This document shows, in pieces, positions 9,013 through 30,899 of a stretch of 32,993 nt of DNA. Positions within the stretch are counted from its first letter, which is position 1; each line of letters opens with the position of its first letter. Where the stretch lies: contig JAJYIQ010000003.1 of assembly GCA_021789995.1 (NCBI GenBank), positions 71,767 to 104,759 of the forward strand. The letters run 5' to 3'. A model generated the notes under the pieces. The model was not told where the DNA came from. It was given only the letters and a program-made list of their open reading frames with translations, and did not search any database. The stretch is from a bacterium (GTDB lineage Bacteria > Patescibacteriota > Microgenomatia > UBA1406 > GWC2-37-13). Both the position numbers and the translations under genes were made by a program.

Positions 9013-9035
9013 ATTATGTGGATAACTTATCCACA
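9013..9035 (-). promoter_or_regulatory. dnaA promoter with an inverted pair of perfect DnaA boxes
   Basis: The boxes TGTGGATAA (9017-9025) and TTATCCACA (9027-9035) are separated by one base and form a 19-base palindrome. A CATAAT -10 (9018 to 9013) ends six bases before the dnaA ATG and overlaps the palindrome by two bases, so the boxes fill the -10/-35 spacer. Bound DnaA would block polymerase. Confidence 0.75.
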
Positions 9036-9079: not shown

Positions 9080-9478
9080 TTAGCGGCCAAGGGCTTTTTT
9101 GACCAGAGAGTCAGTGAAGGAGTTTTTTTCCCGGGGAATATGCTTGTAGACAATTGTTAAACCAATTTCTTGCTCCAGCCCCCGGATTTTAAGGATAAAT
9201 TCACGAATCGCAGCGTTTTTAACTTTAAATAACCCGTTTACCTGGTTGACCATAAGCTGTGAGTCGGAAAAAACAACGACGGCGTCGTTTTGGGAATGGC
9301 TTTTCAACCACTCCAACATCTTAATCAGGCCGGTATACTCGGCGACATTATTGGTGGCCACACCGATCGCTTTTCCTTCGGAATAAATCAATTCATTGTC
9401 CCGATAGACGGCAAAAGCATAAGCGGCCGGCCCGGGATTATTAAGTGAACCACCATCGGTGTAGATTCTTAGGCTCAT
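9080..9478 (-). CDS. rnhA: ribonuclease HI-like protein
   Basis: The 132-residue protein starting at 9478 opens with RIYTDGGSLNNPGPAAYAF, the RNase H signature with the first catalytic Asp. The catalytic Glu lies in NNVAEYTGL, the third acidic residue in FSDSQLMVNQVNG, and the last Asp in NSFTDSLVKKAL. It cleaves RNA in RNA:DNA hybrids, for example primers and R-loops. A longer frame reaching 9613 overlaps the upstream gene and is not supported: 9478 is six bases after a TATAAT box (9485-9490). The gene is shorter than E. coli RNase HI and resembles the single-domain RnhA-like proteins without the basic protrusion. Confidence 0.9.
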   Translation of the reverse strand: MSLRIYTDGGSLNNPGPAAYAFAVYRDNELIYSEGKAIGVATNNVAEYTGLIKMLEWLKSHSQNDAVVVFSDSQLMVNQVNGLFKVKNAAIREFILKIRGLEQEIGLTIVYKHIPREKNSFTDSLVKKALGR

Positions 9479-9494: not shown

Positions 9495-10358
9495 TTATAA
9501 TTCCCCAAGTTTTTCCTTCTTTTCCGCTTCTTCCTTGACAAGATTGAGGAAGCGTTCGGTGGAGGAGAGGCGGCGGTGGCCGACAAGCCGGGCGATATAT
9601 TCGACCGAGGCACCGTTCATTAACTGGTGGGCGATAAAAGTGTTTCGCAAATCATTGACTGTCGCATTTTCTACCCCCACCTCACGGAAGCAGCGGGTAA
9701 TAATCTGGCGGATATTGCGCACCAATAGCGGGTGGCCGGTCCGGGTAACAAACAGGTGACCGTCTTTGGCGATTGTCGACCTTTCTTTTACATATTCGTC
9801 AACCGCTTTTTTCACCGCTTTATTTAATGGAATTTCCCGTTCAGGATTTTTGCCGTAAGAGCGGATATGAAGACCGGCGTCTTTGATGTCTTCCAGATGA
9901 ATGTTGGCCAGCTCGCCAATCTTAATTCCGGTCTGGAGCAGTATTTCTACCAAAGCATATGTCCGGGTGTCTTCTTTGGCAAAATCGCGAAGAGCCCGGT
10001 ATTCCAGTTTGGAAAAAATTCGCGGCGGCGACTGAACATATTTCGGATGGGAAACATCCAGAGAGGGGTTTTGTTCAATAACGCCATCGGCTTTTAAAAA
10101 CCGGAAAAAAGTCCGGATGGAGTTCAGTTTGCGGGAGGCGGATTTTTTCGTGTAATTATCGGTAATTAGCTTATTGATAAAACCGTCAATATGATCTTTT
10201 TTGACTTCCCGGATGTCGTTAACCTCCTGGCTGGTTAAAAAGCCGGTGAACTGCTCCAGATCTTTTTTATAGGCTATCAAGGTAAAAGATGATTTTCCCT
10301 GGGACTGAAGATGTTTGATGAACCGTTCAATCAATGACGGTAGCAGGTAATTATCCAT
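9495..10358 (-). CDS. Xer-like tyrosine recombinase lacking catalytic residues
   Basis: The 287-residue protein has the XerC/XerD plan: a SAM-like core-binding domain (about residues 1-95) and a catalytic-fold domain. Aligned by motif with XerD, only three of six active-site positions are kept: Lys170 (YGKNPER), Arg238 (NDLRNTF) and His261 (LVGHRRLSS). The first Arg is Lys146 (TGIKIGEL for TGLRxSEL), the HxxR His is Asn235, and the nucleophilic Tyr is Phe270 (STERFLNL, where active enzymes have a Tyr). The reading frame is intact. It should still bind DNA but should not cleave it. It is transcribed towards rnhA and dnaA, 16 bases from rnhA. The promoter is TTGAAA, 17 bases, TATATT. Confidence 0.85.
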   Translation of the reverse strand: MDNYLLPSLIERFIKHLQSQGKSSFTLIAYKKDLEQFTGFLTSQEVNDIREVKKDHIDGFINKLITDNYTKKSASRKLNSIRTFFRFLKADGVIEQNPSLDVSHPKYVQSPPRIFSKLEYRALRDFAKEDTRTYALVEILLQTGIKIGELANIHLEDIKDAGLHIRSYGKNPEREIPLNKAVKKAVDEYVKERSTIAKDGHLFVTRTGHPLLVRNIRQIITRCFREVGVENATVNDLRNTFIAHQLMNGASVEYIARLVGHRRLSSTERFLNLVKEEAEKKEKLGEL

Positions 10359-10368
10359 AATGCCCTAT

Positions 10369-10397
10369 AATATATCATAAAACCTCTTACATTTCAA
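10369..10397 (-). promoter_or_regulatory. promoter of the xer-like gene
   Basis: On the minus strand TTGAAA (10397 to 10392), 17 bases, TATATT (10374 to 10369), then ten bases to the ATG at 10358. No Shine-Dalgarno sequence lies in the short gap. Confidence 0.6.
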
Positions 10398-10424: not shown

Positions 10425-12890
10425 TTATTGTAGCTCCTTGTAATCATATTTGGCAATAGATAAATAAGGGAGTAAATTCAGATAAATATTTGGTTGGAAA
10501 TCAACATAAATAGAAGGAATGGCTGTGTTGGTCCATGAACGGCCGTTATTCAGAGTGGTTTCAGCAATCAGGTTTCCTAAGATTAATAGCCCCTGGTTGG
10601 ATGGACTACCGGTATTAACCGTATTGGCGACAAATATTCCTTTGGCATCCTGGGTGGTATTGCTAAAATCGATTTCATCGGCCACGATAGCTACCGATCC
10701 GGCCGGCTGGAAATGTTGCTTATCGATCGTAACCTTGGCACTGTTGCTGATCAAAACCACGTTGTGGGCGCCGAATTTGCCGTCATCACTAATGGTTAAA
10801 TCACCACCTTTCCAGAGATAAATGCCGTCACCGGTAATTGAGCCGGCAGGGATACTGGTATCTCCCGCCGAGCCAATTGATGTCGATGTTTTTCGTGAGC
10901 GAACATAAGCGGCGTAGCCGTCAGCCGACATCGTCAAATGCCGGGAATAAGATGAACTGTTCCAGTTATTGGGGATAGAGTAAGCCGCTCCCAGATTAAT
11001 ACCGACGCCTAAGGTGCTGCCGGCAGTGCCGATAATAAAAAGCGATGAGTTGTTGTCGCTGCTTCCCGGATAAGCGGTTGCCCAGACAGGGATGTTCACA
11101 CTGTTTACTGACGATGACACAAACGAAGTGTTGTTGCTTTTAAACCAGGTGTTGCCGGAGAAATTAAAAGTGATCGGCTGATTAATCGTACCGCCGGCAC
11201 TTATACTCACGGTTTTATTACTGCTAAATGGAGGATTGGGGGGTGAATTACAATTGTTGTCTGTCCAGCCGGTTAAGGTATAGCCAACAGGAGCAACCCC
11301 GATTAAATTAATGGTAGCACTGGTTGGCCAGGTGGGTGGGTTATTGCCTAAACAGTTATTACTGGTAAAAGTGGTGGTGCAGAAATATTTAACGGCGGCA
11401 GTTGTGCTGTGGGAGCCGCCGCTATCTAAAGCATAACAAGTGGTTGAAGTTGCCGTTTGTGATCCGCAGGCGGTTGAAGAAACGATCGGATTGCCGACAG
11501 GGAAATTGTGGTTGGTATCGGCCGGGGTGCAGCCGCTGCCGGATTTTTGCTGAAGATTTCCCTGGATCGTTGTACTGGAAGGATTAACAGGTAAATTAAC
11601 AAGAAGAAAAGCTGTGTTAGAAAAATTCATAAAATCATAGGTGGAGCGGGCATAAACAGTCCGGCCCGGCACAACGTTGACAACAGTTGGTGATGTCGCC
11701 GGTCCATTAAACAGCCAGTTGCCGGCACTATCCCAAACCTGTAGGCCGGTGCCATTAGCCCAGGTAACAGTTACCGGCGTATATGGATTGGTTGGACTCT
11801 CGTTAAAATTGCCGGGAGTCAGGGTCGGTTTGGACGGGGCAATAACCGTTATCTGGCAATAAGAATTAGTAGTCGGATTGGAACAGGTGACCCAGCTGCC
11901 ATTAGCCGGCAGCCCCCAAGGGTTACTGCTGCAGCGGCTGCCCAGCTGGTCATAAATATCAGGTACCATATAAAAGGTTTTGCCGACGTCGGCGCCGGCC
12001 GGTGTCCAGGTAGCGGTAACAGTGGCATTGCCGCCGCTTATACTGACATTAGGATTAAGATTGGTATTTTCCAAAAACCCGTTAGATTGGAGGAGCGACC
12101 AGGATTGATTGGATGTTGGCGAAAAATAAAAACCCATACTTAAAAGATTATTGCCGGAATCAGTGGCTTTGACAGTAAAACTGGCTGAATTGCCGATTAT
12201 GACCGTTGAGGCAAGACAGATAGTGGTGGCTTGGGGAGGGTTGAGACACGGTTGGGTATTGCAAGTATAGGCATTTCCGCAGACGTCGGTACACGTGCCG
12301 CCGCCGCAGGTTTTCGAGCAGCCAGTCGTACAGGTACCGGCGGGGAACCAGGTACAATGTTGCCAACCGTTACCATACTGGTCGGTGCCCCAGGTATTTT
12401 CGCAACTCGCTTGAGTACTCGGTGTTTGGTACCCATTACTACTAGCCGTGCATAAGTTGGCCGGGCAATAGCACGTAGTCTTCGCCTGCCAACTGCAGGG
12501 GTAGTTACACGAATCGACACCATAGGTGGCGCCGTTATCAATCTTACCCATAGCGATTCCGCCACATTTGCCGGTGCATCCCGGGCCGCTACCGCCGCAG
12601 GAGCCGCATTGACCCTCGATGCTGCAGCCGGATGGCGCACTGCTGCCACAGGGAACACACTTATCTGCCGTCATCACACCTTGAGTGTTCCAGCATTTTT
12701 CATCGACCTGGCTGACAGCGCTGGTGGGGTAGGGACCGGTGCCGCTCGTTTCACCAACAGGTGGCGGAGGCGGCGGCGCCACCGGAGCAGTACAGGTGCC
12801 ATCACAGACAAGCATCGCTTTGACTTTTGGGATAAACAAAACGCTGATTATAGAGGCAAATAATAATATCAAAAAGACGACTTTTTTCAT
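10425..12890 (-). CDS. large exported Cys-rich surface protein (adhesin-like), locus 1
   Basis: The 821-residue protein has a signal peptide (VVFLILLFASIISVLFIPKVKA), a Pro-run linker, and a Cys-rich region over about residues 65-215 with many CxxC and CGG units. Gly/Ser/Thr/Asn-rich beta-type domains follow and end in a conserved C-terminal domain of about 150 residues. That last domain (GAHNVVLIS, GSVAIVADEIDF, LGNLIAET, final LLPYLSIAKYDYKELQ) is nearly repeated in the 846-residue protein at 25117-27657, so the two are paralogs. Export, disulfide bonding and a role in attachment or as a pilus-associated adhesin are inferred. No enzymatic motif is seen. It has its own TTGTAT-17-CATAAT promoter. 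Unlike its paralog it has no PilX-like gene coupled to its stop codon. Confidence 0.75.
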   Translation of the reverse strand: MKKVVFLILLFASIISVLFIPKVKAMLVCDGTCTAPVAPPPPPPVGETSGTGPYPTSAVSQVDEKCWNTQGVMTADKCVPCGSSAPSGCSIEGQCGSCGGSGPGCTGKCGGIAMGKIDNGATYGVDSCNYPCSWQAKTTCYCPANLCTASSNGYQTPSTQASCENTWGTDQYGNGWQHCTWFPAGTCTTGCSKTCGGGTCTDVCGNAYTCNTQPCLNPPQATTICLASTVIIGNSASFTVKATDSGNNLLSMGFYFSPTSNQSWSLLQSNGFLENTNLNPNVSISGGNATVTATWTPAGADVGKTFYMVPDIYDQLGSRCSSNPWGLPANGSWVTCSNPTTNSYCQITVIAPSKPTLTPGNFNESPTNPYTPVTVTWANGTGLQVWDSAGNWLFNGPATSPTVVNVVPGRTVYARSTYDFMNFSNTAFLLVNLPVNPSSTTIQGNLQQKSGSGCTPADTNHNFPVGNPIVSSTACGSQTATSTTCYALDSGGSHSTTAAVKYFCTTTFTSNNCLGNNPPTWPTSATINLIGVAPVGYTLTGWTDNNCNSPPNPPFSSNKTVSISAGGTINQPITFNFSGNTWFKSNNTSFVSSSVNSVNIPVWATAYPGSSDNNSSLFIIGTAGSTLGVGINLGAAYSIPNNWNSSSYSRHLTMSADGYAAYVRSRKTSTSIGSAGDTSIPAGSITGDGIYLWKGGDLTISDDGKFGAHNVVLISNSAKVTIDKQHFQPAGSVAIVADEIDFSNTTQDAKGIFVANTVNTGSPSNQGLLILGNLIAETTLNNGRSWTNTAIPSIYVDFQPNIYLNLLPYLSIAKYDYKELQ

Positions 12891-12944: not shown

Positions 12945-14066
12945 TTAATAAATAATCCCGCCATTATAATATGTATTAATGACAGTTTGTGTTTGTGAAC
13001 GTTGATTAGGATTTACCTGATTTTCGGTATAAATCTGTAAAGCTCCGGTTACCATTTCTGCCATGTGACCAGAATCACCATCCGCCGGTACTATGCCTGT
13101 AGCATAGTATATACGGGCATTAATTACCATATTGATTTTACCTGCAGCTGCTTCTTTCAATATTTTTATCCATAAAGGAGGAACAGAAGTTAAATCATCA
13201 GGAGCTAACAATATTCCTGAATTAAACCGATTAGAAAAAATAGCGCAACAATATCCACATTTGCTTCCTATGGTTGTTCCAATTTCCGTCGTTGTCCCAA
13301 AAGTATAGCTATTGACCCATATCCCTTGAAAAAATGTTTCCGGTGTCAAATCGGTAATAAATTCATGGACGACATCATCCCAGTAAATGCCGTATTTTTT
13401 GCCGTAAAGGTCATTAAAATGCTGACGGAAATCACGGTGCTGGTTATCAATGTTTTTTACGTAATTGTTTAGGTCTTTGGCTGTTAAGCCGTAAGGAAAA
13501 CGGGTCACTGCTTCAATCGCCGCCTGTTTAATCATTGTTTTTTCCGTATCTCCCGGATAGGTGATATTGATTTTATTGACTTCCTGATTGGCGATTGTTT
13601 CCGGACTGAGGGTCGGCTCTTGGGTAGGTGGTTTATTACGGTTGGCTAAATCATTAGTGGCAGTAGGAACGACTGTTTTAGTCACGGTGGTTGTTGGTTT
13701 AATAGTTTCCGTTGCTGACGGAACGGCAAAGGGTGTTCCCGGAATGGGTAATGGAGTGCCAACCGTCGGAGTAATAACCGGGACAGTGGTGGTAATCGTT
13801 TCCGTTGCTTTTGATGGGGGGAGAGGAGATACTTCCACGGTTATGGTAGGAGAGGCAGGAATAATTGATGGGGCATGAGCCGGAGTCATCGGGATAATGG
13901 CGGTTGCCGTATCGGTCGCTATCGGGGTTACCCCTTCCGGTGGTTTGGCCATTGCCGGATTATTACTGCAGGCGGATAAAACACCGATAGTTAACGGGGT
14001 TAAGGCAAGAGCAGCCTTAGTCAGGGGGATTCCTTTTTGTCTTTCCGGATTAATACCTGTAGGCAT
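12945..14066 (-). CDS. surface lipoprotein with Thr/Pro-rich stalk, paralog 1
   Basis: The 373-residue protein begins with the signal segment LTKAALALTPLTIGVLSAC, where LSAC is a lipobox. The Cys (residue 33) would be lipidated and the protein held on the outer face of the membrane. Residues 38-160 are a Thr/Pro/Ala stalk. Residues 165-373 form a globular domain with SKCGYCCAIF and the ending YNGGIIY. The first 130 residues are nearly identical to those of two paralogs (28866 and 30862), while the globular domain is only distantly related (shared PYGLTAKDLN / PYNLTAKTLN and DFRQHFNDLYGK / DFRKYINDTYGK). Function is unknown. It is transcribed from its own promoter between an anchored protein and the large surface protein. 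Confidence 0.78.
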   Translation of the reverse strand: MPTGINPERQKGIPLTKAALALTPLTIGVLSACSNNPAMAKPPEGVTPIATDTATAIIPMTPAHAPSIIPASPTITVEVSPLPPSKATETITTTVPVITPTVGTPLPIPGTPFAVPSATETIKPTTTVTKTVVPTATNDLANRNKPPTQEPTLSPETIANQEVNKINITYPGDTEKTMIKQAAIEAVTRFPYGLTAKDLNNYVKNIDNQHRDFRQHFNDLYGKKYGIYWDDVVHEFITDLTPETFFQGIWVNSYTFGTTTEIGTTIGSKCGYCCAIFSNRFNSGILLAPDDLTSVPPLWIKILKEAAAGKINMVINARIYYATGIVPADGDSGHMAEMVTGALQIYTENQVNPNQRSQTQTVINTYYNGGIIY

Positions 14067-14110
14067 ATGAGAATATTATAGGATAGAGAGATGATAGTGT
14101 CAAGGGAAAA
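13690..14110 (-). repeat. lipoprotein 5' repeat, copy 1
   Basis: About 420 bases covering the promoter, signal peptide and most of the stalk are nearly identical to copies 2 and 3. Similarity on the upstream side ends just beyond the -35 box (shared CAAGGGAAAA with copy 2). On the coding side it decays in the stalk near residue 125. Confidence 0.8.
14075..14103 (-). promoter_or_regulatory. lipoprotein 1 promoter, leaderless
   Basis: Consensus sigma70 elements: TTGACA (14103 to 14098), 17 bases, TATAAT (14080 to 14075), and only eight bases to the ATG at 14066. The same elements and spacings occur before both paralogs. Confidence 0.85.
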
Positions 14111-15869: not shown

Positions 15870-17639
15870 TTATTCAATCAACCCCTTCTCTTCATCGGAA
15901 GCGACAACATGGAAACCGACGTGATTGTGGCCGGCAAAGAATAGGCCTTCTCCGACACCCGCCGACAATAAGAAATGTTTTTCGCCGCCGGTCAGGTAAA
16001 ACGTTTCGGTAATTTTTTCAACAGCGGCCGTTGACTGTTTTAAAATTATTTGCAGTGACGAGTTGGTGATAATTGCTTTGCCCTCATCGGTGGCCAAAAA
16101 ATCCTCTACATCCTGGGTGATTGTCGTCAACCCCAGTTGATATTTGCGGGCCCGCTTGGCAAAACTATGGAGATAGCTGCCGGAATCTTTTTGCTTGATC
16201 AGATACCAGGCCTCATCGACGATCAATACCCGTTTCTTTTTATCTTTGCGTACCCGGTTCCAAATATAGTCAAGGACGATATACATGGCGATCGGCCGTA
16301 GATTTTCCTCCAGGTCACGGATACCAAAAACAGTAAACGGGTTTTTAATGTCAAAATTCGACTGTTGGTTAAAAATGCCTGATGCCGATCCCTGGACGAA
16401 TTTTTCTAATCTGTCGGCTAATTCTTTTGATTCGGGAGTTTCCATCCCGAGAAAAATTTTATACAAGTCTTCGAGAAGTGGCGGTTCTTTGGTGAATGTT
16501 TCCGGTTCGGCGGTAATCCCTTTTTCGCGGTAGGTAGCGACCAGCGCCCGGTCAAGCATGGCATCCTGTGACGGGGTCAGCTCGCCCATAATGACGCGCA
16601 TGAGTGAATGCAGGTCAAGAATTTTGTTGGACAATTCATCCGGCTCAGGATTAACCGTCGTTAGATCAAAAGGGTTGATTTTATATTGGGAATTGGCGGC
16701 AAAAACAACAAACTCGCCGCCGACCGACTGGCACAGTTTCTGGTATTCATTTTCCGGGTCGACAATTATCACGTCGGTACCCAACATCAAAAGCCGCAGC
16801 GATTCCAGTTTGACCATGAAGCTTTTGCCGCCGCCGGATTTGCCCAGAATGACCGCGTTGGCATTTTCCAGAGTAAAACGGTCGAAGATAATTAATGAGC
16901 CGTCATGTTCATTAATGCCGTATAAAATGCCTTCGTTGCGGGTCAAAGAGGCGGTGGCAAACGGAAACGTTGTCGCCAACGAAGTGGTATCCATGTTGCG
17001 CCAGACACCCAGTTTGTCGTAAAACATCGGCAAAGTCGATTTAAAGCCTTCTTCCATTTCCAAAGTTGCTTGCCGGGCGACGACCAGAAGCGACGCCAAA
17101 ATCGAATCGACTTCCTTGCTGATCCGGTTCAGTTCCTCCAGTGTGTCTGCCGGAATTGTGATGTATAAACCGAATTGAAAAAAGCGCTCCGCTCCCTTGG
17201 CTAATTCCGCCTGGAGGGCCAAAGCGTCATCAAGAGCCACCTGGACGGTCGGATCAACCACCTTGCCGGCCTTAATATCGTTTTCGATTGTTGCTTCCAT
17301 TTCGGCGATTTTCCGCTTCAGGTCTTCCAAAACATTTTTGGACTCGGTCGGGTAAACATACATGGAAATATAAAGCGGGTGGTCGAAAGTAATGAGAGGG
17401 TAAAGCCAGTTAGCGGAAACATAGCGGGGGTAGCCGACGACATAAAGCGTCCGGTAATATTTATCATCGATTTTGATATTGTTAAAATCAACTTCAATAT
17501 AGGAAGGAGCGATCAAATCCTTGATGGAAACGGTGCCTTTGGCCAGAAATTCAGCCACGTTGGTAGGACCGGTTGGTGTACGGACAACCGAAGTGGGGGA
17601 TGACGCTTTATCGTTTTGTTTACCGAAAAAATTAAACAC
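15870..17639 (-). CDS. virB4: VirB4-family type IV secretion ATPase
   Basis: The 589-residue protein starts at GTG; an in-frame TGA two codons upstream rules out a longer form. Walker A is GKSGGGKS (266-273) and Walker B VLIVDEAW (471-478). DPENEYQKLC (294-303) is typical of VirB4/TraC ATPases, and ITQDVEDFL and TNSSLQIILKQS near the C-terminus belong to the same family. It powers pilus assembly or DNA transfer at the inner membrane. The N-terminal domain of a full VirB4 (about 200 residues) is partly supplied by the separate upstream gene at 17691-18347. This PrgI, N-terminal protein, ATPase order is, as far as I know, usual in CPR secretion clusters. Confidence 0.92.
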   Translation of the reverse strand: MFNFFGKQNDKASSPTSVVRTPTGPTNVAEFLAKGTVSIKDLIAPSYIEVDFNNIKIDDKYYRTLYVVGYPRYVSANWLYPLITFDHPLYISMYVYPTESKNVLEDLKRKIAEMEATIENDIKAGKVVDPTVQVALDDALALQAELAKGAERFFQFGLYITIPADTLEELNRISKEVDSILASLLVVARQATLEMEEGFKSTLPMFYDKLGVWRNMDTTSLATTFPFATASLTRNEGILYGINEHDGSLIIFDRFTLENANAVILGKSGGGKSFMVKLESLRLLMLGTDVIIVDPENEYQKLCQSVGGEFVVFAANSQYKINPFDLTTVNPEPDELSNKILDLHSLMRVIMGELTPSQDAMLDRALVATYREKGITAEPETFTKEPPLLEDLYKIFLGMETPESKELADRLEKFVQGSASGIFNQQSNFDIKNPFTVFGIRDLEENLRPIAMYIVLDYIWNRVRKDKKKRVLIVDEAWYLIKQKDSGSYLHSFAKRARKYQLGLTTITQDVEDFLATDEGKAIITNSSLQIILKQSTAAVEKITETFYLTGGEKHFLLSAGVGEGLFFAGHNHVGFHVVASDEEKGLIE

Positions 17640-21224: not shown

Positions 21225-23588
21225 ATGGATGCAATTTTTGCCACCACGATCGATCGGCTTATTACTTTCGGCCTGGCCCTATTGGCCGGCATCCTGGCCG
21301 CTGGCTTGACTTTTGTCTTTATTTATTTGATTATAATCTATCTCCGGCTGAAAAAGCGGGAACAAATCTCGCTGGAAATGGTTTCGCTGGAAGTCCGTCT
21401 GCCCAAGGAAAACGAAATCAAAATCGACGCCGCCGAGCAGATGTTTTCCGCTTTTTTTTCCCTGAAAAAATCCGGTTGGTTTTCCTTTTTGGATCTGGAC
21501 GACGTCATTGCTTTTGAAATTGTCGGCAAAAAAGCCGATATCCGCTTTTATGTGTCGGCACCGTCCCGGATAATCGACCTCGTCGAGAAAACCATTTACG
21601 GTTACTATCCCAACGCCGACATCAAAAGAGTAGATGAACCGAACATTTTTTCGGAAACCGGTAAGGTGTCTTTTGGCAGTTTGGTTATGAAGGATTATCC
21701 TTATATGCCGCTTAAAGCATTTAAGGATTTGGCGACCGATTCGATGGCGGCCGTCACCTCTGCCTTGTCCAAAATGGATGATGACGAAGGGGCGATGGTC
21801 CAGATCCTGATCCGGCCGGCCGATGGCAAATGGAAAAAAGCGGGCAAATCTTATGTCGCCTCAACCAAAAAACAGGAGGCCAATCCGGAAAAAGCAACTT
21901 TCAAAACCGACCCGAAAGTATTGGAAAAAATCGACGACAAATGTTCCAAACCGGGATTTGAATCAACCATCCGTTTCGTTGTTTCCGCCAAAAGCAAAGA
22001 ATTGTCCGACATGCATCTCAAAAACATCAAGTCGGCCTTTTCCCAGTTTAATTCCGACCTTAACGGGTTAAAAGGGGCACGGGTCCTTTTTAAAGGCGGC
22101 TTTATGATTGATTTTATCTATAAGTTTTTCCCAGTGCTGGAGCCGCCTTTTTATCACTCGGTTTCCATATTAAGCAGTGATGAATTGGCGACTCTTTTCC
22201 ATTTTCCCAACAAAACGATTGAAACTCCGCATGTCCAGTGGCTGAAAGCAAAAACGGCGCCCGTGCCGGCCGAAGTCCCCCAGACCGATGGCGGTGACGG
22301 TGGCACCTATATCGGTAAAGGTTATTACAGGGGGGTGAAGCGCCCGATTTATATTGGTTTTGAAGACCGCCGCCGCCACGTGTATATTATCGGAAAAACC
22401 GGTACCGGCAAATCCGTTCTCCTTCAGGACATGGCTATTCAGGATATCAAAGACGGCCATGGGGTCTGTGTCATCGATCCCCACGGCGATTTGATCGACG
22501 AAATCGTCAAATTCATTCCGCCTGATCGGGCCGAGGATGTCATCTATTTTGACCCATCCGATACTGAGCGGCCGATGGGCCTTAACCTTTTGGAGGCAAA
22601 AACCGAAGACCAGAAGCATTTTATTACAACGGCAATTATTAACCTGATGTATAAATTATATGATCCGCAGCGGACCGGTATCATCGGACCGCGGTTCGAG
22701 CATGCGGTTCGCAATGCGATGCTCACCGTCATGTACGAACCCGGGGCGACTTTTGTTGAAGTGATGCGTATCTTACAGGATCCAAAATACGTCCAGGAAA
22801 TTTTGCCGAAAGTGGAAGACCCAATTGTCCGGCGCTACTGGACCGACCAGATCGCCCAGACCTCTGATTTCCACAAGTCGGAAGTCCTCGATTATATCGT
22901 TTCCAAATTCGGCCGGTTTGTCACCAATAAAACGATGAGAAATATAATCGGTCAGTCGAAAAGTGCTTTCGATTTCCGCCAGGTGATGGATGAGGGCAAA
23001 ATTCTTCTAATTAATTTATCCAAAGGAAAATTGGGTGAGGAAAATTCGAGCTTCCTGGGGTTGGTACTTATCCCTAAAATTCTGGTTGCCGCCATGAGCC
23101 GGCAGGAGATTCCGGAAGAGCACCGCCGCGACTTTTTCCTCTATGTCGACGAGTTCCAAAACTTCGCCACACCGGATTTTGCCACAATTTTATCCGAGGC
23201 CAGAAAATATCATTTGAATTTGACCGTCGCCAACCAGTTTATCGGCCAAATGGAGGAGGAAGTGAAAAATGCTGTCTTCGGCAATGTCGGCAGTCTAATT
23301 ACCTTCCGCGTCGGCGTCACTGACGCCTCCTACTTGCAGCGGGAATACCAGCCAGTTTTTTCCGAATCGGACTTGATCAACATCGAGCGTTTTCATACCT
23401 ACGTCAAAACGATTGTCGACAACGAGCCGGTACCGCCTTTTTCCGTCGATATGACCAAAGATATGGCCGCTTACCGCGCCGCCGCCAACCCGAAAATCGC
23501 CCAGGCAGTTATTCAATTGTCACGATTGAAATTCGGCCGGCCGCGGGAGCTGGTCGAGGCCGAGGTCAGCCAGCGGGCAAGGCTGTAA
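21225..23588 (+). CDS. VirD4/TraD-like type IV secretion coupling ATPase
   Basis: The 787-residue protein begins with a membrane helix (ITFGLALLAGILAAGLTFVFIYLIIIYL, about residues 13-40). A long domain of about 340 residues follows, then the ATPase: GKTGTGKS (Walker A, about 389-396), CVIDPHGDLIDEIV, and FFLYVDEFQNFA (Walker B, about 636-647). SEARKYHLNLTVANQFIGQM and FGNVGSLITFRVG follow, as in TraD/TraG coupling proteins and the DUF87-like HerA/FtsK superfamily. Such ATPases bring DNA or protein to the secretion channel. It complements PrgI and VirB4 encoded 2 kb away on the other strand. The reductase gene follows after 12 bases. Confidence 0.88.
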   Translation: MDAIFATTIDRLITFGLALLAGILAAGLTFVFIYLIIIYLRLKKREQISLEMVSLEVRLPKENEIKIDAAEQMFSAFFSLKKSGWFSFLDLDDVIAFEIVGKKADIRFYVSAPSRIIDLVEKTIYGYYPNADIKRVDEPNIFSETGKVSFGSLVMKDYPYMPLKAFKDLATDSMAAVTSALSKMDDDEGAMVQILIRPADGKWKKAGKSYVASTKKQEANPEKATFKTDPKVLEKIDDKCSKPGFESTIRFVVSAKSKELSDMHLKNIKSAFSQFNSDLNGLKGARVLFKGGFMIDFIYKFFPVLEPPFYHSVSILSSDELATLFHFPNKTIETPHVQWLKAKTAPVPAEVPQTDGGDGGTYIGKGYYRGVKRPIYIGFEDRRRHVYIIGKTGTGKSVLLQDMAIQDIKDGHGVCVIDPHGDLIDEIVKFIPPDRAEDVIYFDPSDTERPMGLNLLEAKTEDQKHFITTAIINLMYKLYDPQRTGIIGPRFEHAVRNAMLTVMYEPGATFVEVMRILQDPKYVQEILPKVEDPIVRRYWTDQIAQTSDFHKSEVLDYIVSKFGRFVTNKTMRNIIGQSKSAFDFRQVMDEGKILLINLSKGKLGEENSSFLGLVLIPKILVAAMSRQEIPEEHRRDFFLYVDEFQNFATPDFATILSEARKYHLNLTVANQFIGQMEEEVKNAVFGNVGSLITFRVGVTDASYLQREYQPVFSESDLINIERFHTYVKTIVDNEPVPPFSVDMTKDMAAYRAAANPKIAQAVIQLSRLKFGRPRELVEAEVSQRARL

Positions 23589-27708: not shown

Positions 27709-28866
27709 TTACCTTGTGTGGACACCGCCGGTAAAAGCAGCATTGAGCAGTGTTGACATATAATCTGATACCGATGTATTGGAAAGAGAACGGCCTGTTT
27801 TATGGTATTGATTTAGCATATACGCCTCAATCGCCATAGATATTTCTTCGCCAAAATTTGCTTGAGCTTCGCCACCGATCATTTTATTTAATGAAGGAGT
27901 CGGCTTTCCCTGGGCATGAGCGTCATGAATTTGCTGCCAACGGATCGATGTGGCATAATCGCTGGCATAATTGGCGACTGCCTCTTTACCAAGAGCCAGA
28001 AACAATTCCGGATAGTATTGATTTAGATCATTTTGCGAATAATAAATCATATCGGTATCCGCTCTCCACTGAGTTGTGGGAATGGAAGGATTGGGGTTTG
28101 CCATTATTCCAACACTTCTAAATAAATCTTCCGGTTTATTGACGTTGATTTCTTTAAGAACCCGCTCCAAATCAAACGTATAATTCTTATAATTATATTT
28201 GCTATAAGTAACCGCCATGTGTTGAGCAAAATCTTTCCCGCTTTGTTGAAGGATAAAATCATTAAGTGTTTTAGCGGTGAGATTATATGGATAATAAGTG
28301 AGGGCATCTTGGATTGCTGCCTGGAATTTGCCCACCTGATCCGGCGGCAAGTCGCTGGGAATTAGCGCATTTGGTCCGGTAATTAGCTTAATAGACAGCT
28401 CATGGGCTTCTTTCCGGATTTCTTCCGGTGACCGGGTAGGAGTGGCAGTGGCTTCTTTAGTGGCAGTAGGAATGACTGTTTTAGTCACGGTGGCAGTTGG
28501 TTTAGTCTCTGTTGATGAGGGGATGGCAAAGGGTGTTCCCGGAATGGGTAATGGAGTGCCGACTGTCGGAGTAATAACCGGGACAGTGGCAGTAATCGTT
28601 TCCGTTGCTTTTGATGGGGGAAGAGGAGATACTTCCACGGTTATGGCAGGAGAGGCAGGAATAATTGATGGGGCATGAGCCGGAGTCATTGGGATAATGG
28701 CGGTTGCCGTATCGGTCGCTATCGGGGTTACCCCTTCCGGTAGTTTGGCTAAAGCCGGATTATTACTGCAGGCGGATAAAACACCGATCGTTAACGGGGT
28801 TAAGGCAAGAGCAGCCTTAGTCAGGGGGATTCCTTTTTGTCTTTCCGGATTAATACCTGTAGGCAT
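27709..28866 (-). CDS. surface lipoprotein with Thr/Pro-rich stalk, paralog 2
   Basis: The 385-residue protein has a signal peptide and lipobox (LTIGVLSAC) identical to paralogs 1 and 3. Its stalk is followed by SPEEIRKEAHELSIKL, which is also in paralog 3. The globular domain (about 175-385) contains PYNLTAKTLNDFILQQSGKDFAQH, EDLFRSVGI and the ending AAFTGGVHTR. It lacks the SKCGYCC segment of paralog 1. Protein function is unknown; surface display is inferred from the lipobox. The gene lies between the anchored protein (28953-29597) and surface protein 2, repeating the order of locus 1. Confidence 0.78.
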   Translation of the reverse strand: MPTGINPERQKGIPLTKAALALTPLTIGVLSACSNNPALAKLPEGVTPIATDTATAIIPMTPAHAPSIIPASPAITVEVSPLPPSKATETITATVPVITPTVGTPLPIPGTPFAIPSSTETKPTATVTKTVIPTATKEATATPTRSPEEIRKEAHELSIKLITGPNALIPSDLPPDQVGKFQAAIQDALTYYPYNLTAKTLNDFILQQSGKDFAQHMAVTYSKYNYKNYTFDLERVLKEINVNKPEDLFRSVGIMANPNPSIPTTQWRADTDMIYYSQNDLNQYYPELFLALGKEAVANYASDYATSIRWQQIHDAHAQGKPTPSLNKMIGGEAQANFGEEISMAIEAYMLNQYHKTGRSLSNTSVSDYMSTLLNAAFTGGVHTR

Positions 28867-28910
28867 ATGAGAATATTATAGGATAGGGAAATGATAGTGT
28901 CAAGGGAAAA
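28382..28910 (-). repeat. lipoprotein 5' repeat, copy 2
   Basis: Promoter, signal peptide, stalk and the first helix of the mature domain. It is nearly identical to copy 3 over about 520 bases, with a run of some 300 bases showing no difference by eye, and to copy 1 over about 420 bases. Confidence 0.85.
28875..28903 (-). promoter_or_regulatory. lipoprotein 2 promoter, leaderless
   Basis: TTGACA (28903 to 28898), 17 bases, TATAAT (28880 to 28875), eight bases to the ATG at 28866. Confidence 0.85.
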
Positions 28911-29767: not shown

Positions 29768-30862
29768 TTAAGGTTTAACATGGATGCCTCCTAAAAACAT
29801 ATTTTCTAAAAATGTCGCCTGCGGGTACACGTAGAATTGAATAGCAAAAGAAATTGATTCTCCAAACGAAACCTGTGAATATCCTCCAATCAGTTGTGCA
29901 GGTGATGGAATTGGTTTTCCCTTCGCGAGTGCCTCTTCAATTTTAGCAAGTCGGATTGTTGTGGCATTATCAGATACTTTATTAGCAACAGACTCTTTTA
30001 TAAGACTGGCATATAGCGGGTAGCTGTTAGAGTTGGGATTAAAATCTTCGGGCGCAATGAATATTGTGTCTTTTCCGGGCTGCCACGATGTTGTTGGTCC
30101 AGAGTAATGATTGGGGTCGATGTTGATTCCGGAAAACAGATCTTCCATGTGATTGATATTTAATTGTTTGATTATTGTGTCATAATCTATTCCGTATTTT
30201 CCATAGGTGTCATTAATATATTTTCTGAAATCTTTTCCGGATTTGTTGAAGATGTCTTGGTTTAATTCTTCTCCAGTTATACCATACGGATATATAATTA
30301 ATGCTTGTTCAATGGCGGCGCGGATGGCTTCCCGTCTTGCCGGATCCAGATCGGCAGGAACAGCGGCGTATTCGCCGGTAGTTAGCTTAATAGACAGCTC
30401 ATGGGCCTCTTTCCGGATTTCTTCCGGTGACCGGGTAGGAGTGGCAGTGGCTTCTTTAGTGGCAGTAGGAATGACTGTTTTAGTCACGGTGGCAGTTGGT
30501 TTAGTCTCTGTTGATGAGGGGATGGCAAAGGGTGTTCCCGGAATGGGTAATGGAGTGCCGACTGTCGGAGTAATAACCGGGACAGTGGCAGTAATCGTTT
30601 CCGTTGCTTTTGATGGGGGAAGAGGAGATACTTCCACGGTTATGGCAGGAGAGGCAGGAATAATTGATGGGGCATGAGCCGGAGTCATTGGGATAATGGC
30701 GGTTGCCGTATCGGTCGCTATCGGGGTTACCCCTTCCGGCGGTTTCACAGCCGGATTATTACTGCAGGCGGATAAAACACCGATAGTTAACGGGGTTAAG
30801 GCAAGAGCAGCTTTAGTCAGGGGGATTCCTTTTTGTCTTTCCGGACTGATACCTGTAGGCAT
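29768..30862 (-). CDS. surface lipoprotein with Thr/Pro-rich stalk, paralog 3
   Basis: The 364-residue protein has the same signal peptide, lipobox (LTIGVLSAC) and stalk as paralogs 1 and 2. Its globular domain (about 165-364) aligns with paralog 2 in layout: PYGITGEELNQDIFNKSGKDFRKYINDTYGKYGIDYD, MEDLFSGI, TTSWQPGKDTIFIAPEDF, GGYSQVSFGESISFAI, end FLGGIHVKP. Similarity is modest compared with the nearly identical N-terminus. No enzyme motif is recognised. It begins immediately after the PBP2 gene, with a leaderless promoter in the 41-base gap. Confidence 0.78.
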   Translation of the reverse strand: MPTGISPERQKGIPLTKAALALTPLTIGVLSACSNNPAVKPPEGVTPIATDTATAIIPMTPAHAPSIIPASPAITVEVSPLPPSKATETITATVPVITPTVGTPLPIPGTPFAIPSSTETKPTATVTKTVIPTATKEATATPTRSPEEIRKEAHELSIKLTTGEYAAVPADLDPARREAIRAAIEQALIIYPYGITGEELNQDIFNKSGKDFRKYINDTYGKYGIDYDTIIKQLNINHMEDLFSGINIDPNHYSGPTTSWQPGKDTIFIAPEDFNPNSNSYPLYASLIKESVANKVSDNATTIRLAKIEEALAKGKPIPSPAQLIGGYSQVSFGESISFAIQFYVYPQATFLENMFLGGIHVKP

Positions 30863-30899
30863 ATGAGAATATTATAGGATAGGGAAATGACGTTGTCAA
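30379..30899 (-). repeat. lipoprotein 5' repeat, copy 3
   Basis: Nearly identical to copy 2 from the helix HELSIKL (residues about 152-158) back to the promoter; a three-base deletion and a few substitutions fall near residues 38-42. On the upstream side identity ends at the -35, next to the mrdA stop. Confidence 0.85.
30871..30899 (-). promoter_or_regulatory. lipoprotein 3 promoter, leaderless
   Basis: TTGACA (30899 to 30894), 17 bases, TATAAT (30876 to 30871), eight bases to the ATG at 30862. It fits exactly between the mrdA stop and this start. Confidence 0.85.

Follow-up and report, generated by a model that had tools for sequence, protein, structure and literature searches.

The window (the whole stretch of DNA analysed, 32,993 nucleotides) carries on its minus strand an open frame for a full-length Xer-type protein of 287 aa, called here the xer-like gene. 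It is followed by rnhA, by dnaA, which has its own promoter, and then by dnaN (Table 1). The rnhA and xer-like genes are probably on the same transcript. Directly upstream of the xer-like gene, an 821-aa minus-strand ORF (10425-12890) has no Pfam or NCBIfam match and almost no relatives at the loci of neighbouring genomes, and may encode a fast-evolving surface protein.

Table 1. Features of the xer-like locus, in window coordinates
Feature	Coordinates	Strand	Remarks
Degenerate Xer-family CDS, 287 aa	9495..10358	-	ATG at 10358; pentad K146 K170 N235 R238 H261 F270
rnhA (RNase H)	9080..9478	-	ATG at 9478, 16 bases past the xer-like stop
TGTGGATAAGTTATCCACA in the promoter region of dnaA, a pair of consensus DnaA boxes that overlap	9017..9035		
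dnaA	7675..9006	-	neighbour in own family only
TGATATATTATAGG, extended -10 region and conserved ATTATAGG element	10364..10377	-	5 bases ahead of the start codon
-35-like TTGAAA	10392..10397	-	17 bases from TATATT (10369-10374)

The protein has the two-domain architecture of Xer proteins, a core-binding SAM-like domain (Phage_int_SAM_1, PF02899, 2.7e-16) and a Phage_integrase catalytic domain (PF00589, 1.1e-23), recovered both by Pfam and by an AF2 model examined with Foldseek. The NCBIfam XerD, XerC and XerA models also match it strongly, although well short of the equivalog cut-offs (159.7 vs 329.6 bits with the XerD model, and 157.4 vs 335.2 and 133.7 vs 220 bits for the other two). The AF2 model has a mean pLDDT of 90.7, and the lowest E-values obtained with it in Foldseek belong to XerA structures. 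It adopts a closed-clamp conformation, in which the whole-chain TM to apo XerA and XerD is poor and the best superposition is that on DNA-bound lambda Int (2.7-3.2 A, TM about 0.76-0.83); because there is no canonical Xer model as a control, this conformation is not counted towards DNA binding.

While the fold is that of Xer, catalytic residues have been lost. Functional Xers carry the set R-K-H-R-H/W-Y, whereas the window protein has K-K-N-R-H-F, residues R148, K172, H244, R247, H270 and Y279 of E. coli XerD aligning with K146, K170, N235, R238, H261 and F270. An earlier note on this DNA had assigned the same six residues from motifs, and the XerD alignment bears out every one. Its reading of F270 as a Tyr to Phe change is upheld by phmmer alignments to solved XerA and XerD structures, which also place this residue opposite the catalytic tyrosine. 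Another tyrosine was sought in the C-terminal 32 residues and none was found; the last tyrosine is Y254, and hence the C-terminal end offers no alternative nucleophile. The second histidine of the motif has changed too (LRHTF to LRNTF, Asn239). As to the statement that Lys170 remains, there is indeed a lysine at the aligned position, but its retention is doubtful, since the beta2-beta3 hairpin lacks one residue relative to XerD, the lysine is replaced or deleted in other members, and the column lies at the 72nd percentile of variability in the family.

Matches to the protein were found in 56 of 57 relative genomes, and in 53 of these the match is clearly an ortholog (225 to 626 bits, with other Xers scoring below 60 bits). 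The gene is under purifying selection (dN/dS 0.023, dS 1.07, against the nearest ortholog, that of G001, which is 95% identical) and all the orthologs found among the relatives have open frames without internal stops, which agrees with the earlier claim that the gene is maintained. Asn at the HxxR position is common to all of these orthologs, except for a Gln in family f2. Phe at the Tyr position is found in nearly all orthologs of the window's own family, with Tyr retained in G016, G019 and G034, in f2 and in the remaining families of the class. The comparison of orthologs at the six positions, which the note had proposed as a check for sequencing error, therefore showed that the changes are common to orthologs and are not an error, with Asn shared throughout but Phe near-general only in the own family. 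The absence of several catalytic residues could be expected of a decaying, erroneous, mis-assembled or pseudogenic Xer; the changes shared by orthologs and the low dN/dS rule this out, and together with the open frames and the phylum-wide clade described below leave such a reading a negligible probability. A virus origin was also rejected, as a scan of viral contigs gave only two distant integrases; the gene lies in a chromosomal context adjoining core genes and not in a phage or prophage.

Across the phylum, the family (membership threshold E <= 1e-30) is carried by 64 of 240 sampled genomes, among them Roizmanbacteria, Gottesmanbacteria, Woesebacteria and other Microgenomates. It is monophyletic: a branch with SH-aLRT 100 sets all 77 sampled family members apart in a tree that also included 33 canonical Xers from these genomes, XerC and XerD of E. 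coli and archaeal XerA. The family is separate from the intact canonical Xer, which is present in nearly all carriers; in G209 and G125 none was found, possibly because it was missed. The window genome has a single intact Xer with RKHRHY motifs (C4:99125-99664), the second, complete gene for which the earlier note had suggested a search. Where the family is absent from a genome of the phylum, the canonical Xer is the only one, except in G059, which has two canonical copies.

Other Xer-related proteins also occur in these genomes. The canonical Xer of the Roizmanbacterium G026 (C1:884500-889000) is encoded by a 733-aa ORF (L293:1018-3219, minus strand) with a putative intein-like insert, recognised by its motifs (CLHPQT...HN and GDG/DAEG) and located exactly within the active-site motif, between HxLRH and SY. 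The intact Xers of family f33 (e.g. L294:1090-2520) have frames of 426-487 aa owing to two insertions, a long extra one in the region that precedes the HxLRH motif and one that follows the N-terminal domain. Stand-alone integrase N-terminal SAM-like domain proteins of ~158 aa (PF13102/PF02899), with no catalytic domain, also occur in several related genomes (L070:2983-3456, L071:2347-2823 and L072).

Within the family, the catalytic columns have fared differently (the HxxR and Lys columns were taken from motif strings, realignments and column counts). Among the 77 members, Arg-II is invariant and His-III is H in 75 and Y in 2. The HxxR His has become N in 72, F in three and Q in one, and is H in a single member; Arg-I is R in 55, K in 16, T in three, S in two and G in one; the Tyr column is Y in 64 and F in 13. 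The Lys column of other members holds E, G, N, R, H or A or is deleted; most lineages show such a replacement or deletion, and some have lost the Lys-bearing hairpin. No complete RKHRHY was found among the family members examined. The family-wide marks are the His to Asn change and the loss of Lys, while Tyr to Phe is found only in the window's own order and in a small number of members elsewhere, and most of the distant members retain Tyr. On the tree, Arg-I requires at least seven changes and Tyr at least four. The Lys column is of above-average variability in the family and near-invariant in canonical Xers; Arg-I stands at the 38th percentile of column entropy in the family, and both columns at the 12th in canonical Xers.

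The Tyr, Arg-II and His-III kept in most of the distant members would speak for a still-active recombinase or topoisomerase with altered chemistry. However, this reading is very improbable: neither at the Tyr position nor close to it does the window protein have a Tyr, most lineages lack the general-acid Lys or do not conserve it, several have K, T, S or G in place of Arg-I, and a Phe substituted for the Tyr abolishes the activity of Cre, XerH and lambda Int (PMC10516654). Other parts of the protein are tightly held. Near-invariant in the family are K72, S75, R76, K77 and N79 of helix D and R214, N215 and R217 of helix J, all of which, except R214, differ from canonical Xer. From established knowledge of XerD and Cre, we take helices D and J to be DNA-contact helices; their conservation beside loosened catalytic columns is as expected of a protein that binds DNA but is released from catalytic constraint.

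A non-cleaving protein could also serve as a partner of the canonical Xer, akin to the recombinase helper that the earlier note had put forward, occupying a dif arm or an accessory site and tuning or activating strand exchange by the intact enzyme. The presence of an intact Xer in nearly every carrier would suit such a role, as would the kept Xer fold and the near-invariant last residue, Leu287. Against this, the canonical Xer stands alone in the family-free genomes G166, G065, G069, G070, G074, G075, G077 and G078, so the family protein is not required. Moreover, the parts involved in Xer-Xer contact vary more than their counterparts in canonical Xers (2.43 vs 1.38 bits of entropy in the C-terminal region and 1.82 vs 0.63 bits in helix 252-259), and the dif searches described below identified no dif site. 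A partner role is thus considered unlikely.

The gene neighbourhood points away from the origin and towards cell division. The order xer-like to rnhA is retained in the own family (f1) and in f2, and adjacency to dnaA and dnaN is seen only in f1, with variable gene order and orientation. Other families have the gene in different surroundings, where its commonest partner in divergent orientation is divIC, which encodes a septum protein of the DivIC/FtsB type (PF04977). This is the immediate divergent neighbour at 53 of 72 distinct loci outside f1 and in 27 of the 34 families outside f1; divIC lies upstream on the same strand at six further such loci and does not adjoin the xer-like gene in f1. 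The link to the origin proposed in the earlier note is not supported by this comparison. Genes for a VirB4-like (CD1110 family) and a TrwB/TraG-like coupling ATPase lie near the dnaA region of the window (15870-17639 and 21225-23588), and a similar ATPase recurs close to the xer-like gene in other families.

Proximity to divIC across the phylum, and to dnaA in the own family, might also be expected of a chromosome-organising DNA clamp, and a non-catalytic role of this kind is known for XerD as a sequence-specific SMC unloader, going by its citation in PMC12322038. However, the position of the gene relative to the origin is not conserved, and the best candidate for a binding site occurs in essentially one copy, inside the gene's own promoter, so that a regulator fits better than an array of unloading sites. 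A clamp has accordingly been left only a small chance.

This candidate site is the element that adjoins the start codon, where the xer-like gene appears to have a leaderless-type start. The pattern TTG-N~17-TATG.TATATTATAGG is found shortly ahead of the start codon in 62 of 63 own-family promoters, with minor variants, and TTG is kept at the same -35 spacing in the f1 consensus (62 promoters). The element is specific to this gene. Of the 26 occurrences of TGNTATATTATAGG in 37 family genomes, 24 immediately precede the xer-like gene, as do seven of the nine occurrences of ATGATATTATAGG in 54 genomes. On the same strand, ATATTATAGG lies upstream of 45% of 150 family genes vs 0 of 870 other genes; its reverse form is found in 2.5% of controls, largely divIC genes with a shared region. 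The element is strong in the own order and in some families of the class and absent from families f5, f8 and f13; a looser CCTATAG/CCCATAG form in other classes was picked after looking at the data. Since the element overlaps the -10 box, part of its conservation is promoter conservation. Its position relative to the -10 hexamer shifts by 2 bases between groups, which hints at conservation beyond RNA polymerase.

Paired half-sites are the usual binding target of Xer proteins. A palindrome test for an inverted repeat in the promoter element did no better than column shuffles. The complement of the element, CCTATAA, resembles the XerC-type arm of Firmicutes dif. A dif search with TAANNNNNNTTATGTNAA gave recurrent matches, but the recurring form, TAACAGCGTTTATGTCAA, resembles coding sequence (DNSVYVK, on an informal reading), and hence no dif was assigned. 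Separately, an identical CCTATAATATTC stands on the minus strand at three places in the window (14071-14082, 28871-28882 and 30867-30878), in each case some 5 bases ahead of the start of an ORF that has no Pfam match (12945-14066, 27709-28866 and 29768-30862), which suggests that these ORFs have similar leaderless promoters.

With relatives across much of the phylum, usually beside a cell-division gene, the family is probably an ancient DNA-binding regulator and not a broken enzyme. A chromosomal Xer paralog would have lost DNA cleavage long ago, becoming a pseudo-recombinase that retained the two-domain fold together with family-specific residues in its DNA-contact helices. We infer that this protein binds the candidate ATTATAGG-type operator over the -10/start region of its own gene, which would limit its own expression (autorepression), and that over most of the phylum, where the intergenic region also serves the divergent divIC gene, it probably controls divIC too. 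There is about an even chance that the protein does not cleave DNA but binds it sequence-specifically to regulate its own promoter and, in the ancestral arrangement, the promoter shared with divIC. The non-cleaving DNA-binding role favoured by the earlier note is thus still the best reading, although its interpretation as a whole is only partly supported. A fuller account is offered tentatively, at somewhat less than even odds of being right: an Xer duplicate that became a near-core regulator across much of Patescibacteria, tied to divIC by a shared divergent promoter, self-controlled via a dif-half-site-like element and relocated to the dnaA region in Roizmanbacteria.

With XerC, XerD and XerA (TIGR02224, TIGR02225, NF040815) the family shares the two-domain architecture, the fold, the chromosomal single-copy gene, Arg-II and His-III. 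It differs in the changed Lys, HxxR His, Arg-I and, in the window protein, Tyr, and forms a separate clade that falls under the equivalog cut-offs and coexists with an intact Xer. The XerD-like protein of streptococci and lactococci (NF002685) is without catalytic residues and is not known to be needed at difSL. It is likewise a chromosomal Xer paralog beside a working Xer, but has about 245 aa, belongs to another phylum and matches only weakly (42.7 vs 178 bits). B. subtilis XerD, as an SMC unloader, resembles the proposed regulator in acting via DNA binding and not recombination, to the extent of its citation in PMC12322038, but is also a working recombinase; an SMC role for the present family would be hypothetical. 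The master repressor of prophage SPbeta, MrpR (YopR), is built on a tyrosine-recombinase fold and no longer works as a recombinase; it has Asn in place of the HxxR His and binds a repeated element (PMC10516654). This DNA-binding regulator shares with the family its fold, its lost recombinase residues and that Asn, and is a proven parallel for the evolution of a recombinase fold into a repressor. In contrast to the prophage protein, the xer-like family is chromosomal, phylum-wide and Xer-like, and its own DNA binding is a prediction. Among the papers searched, none describes the family. Recombinase-fold regulators and Xer paralogs without catalytic residues are known kinds; new here is one that is ancient, chromosomal and phylum-wide.

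Because xer-like genes resemble XerC and XerD by sequence, annotation by similarity would credit these genomes with two Xer recombinases each, one of which most likely cannot cut. If the proposed role is true, a large part of this phylum, whose bacteria are reduced and for the most part uncultured, would control a division gene by a pseudo-recombinase, and the family would represent a rare chromosomal, phylum-wide switch from enzyme to regulator.
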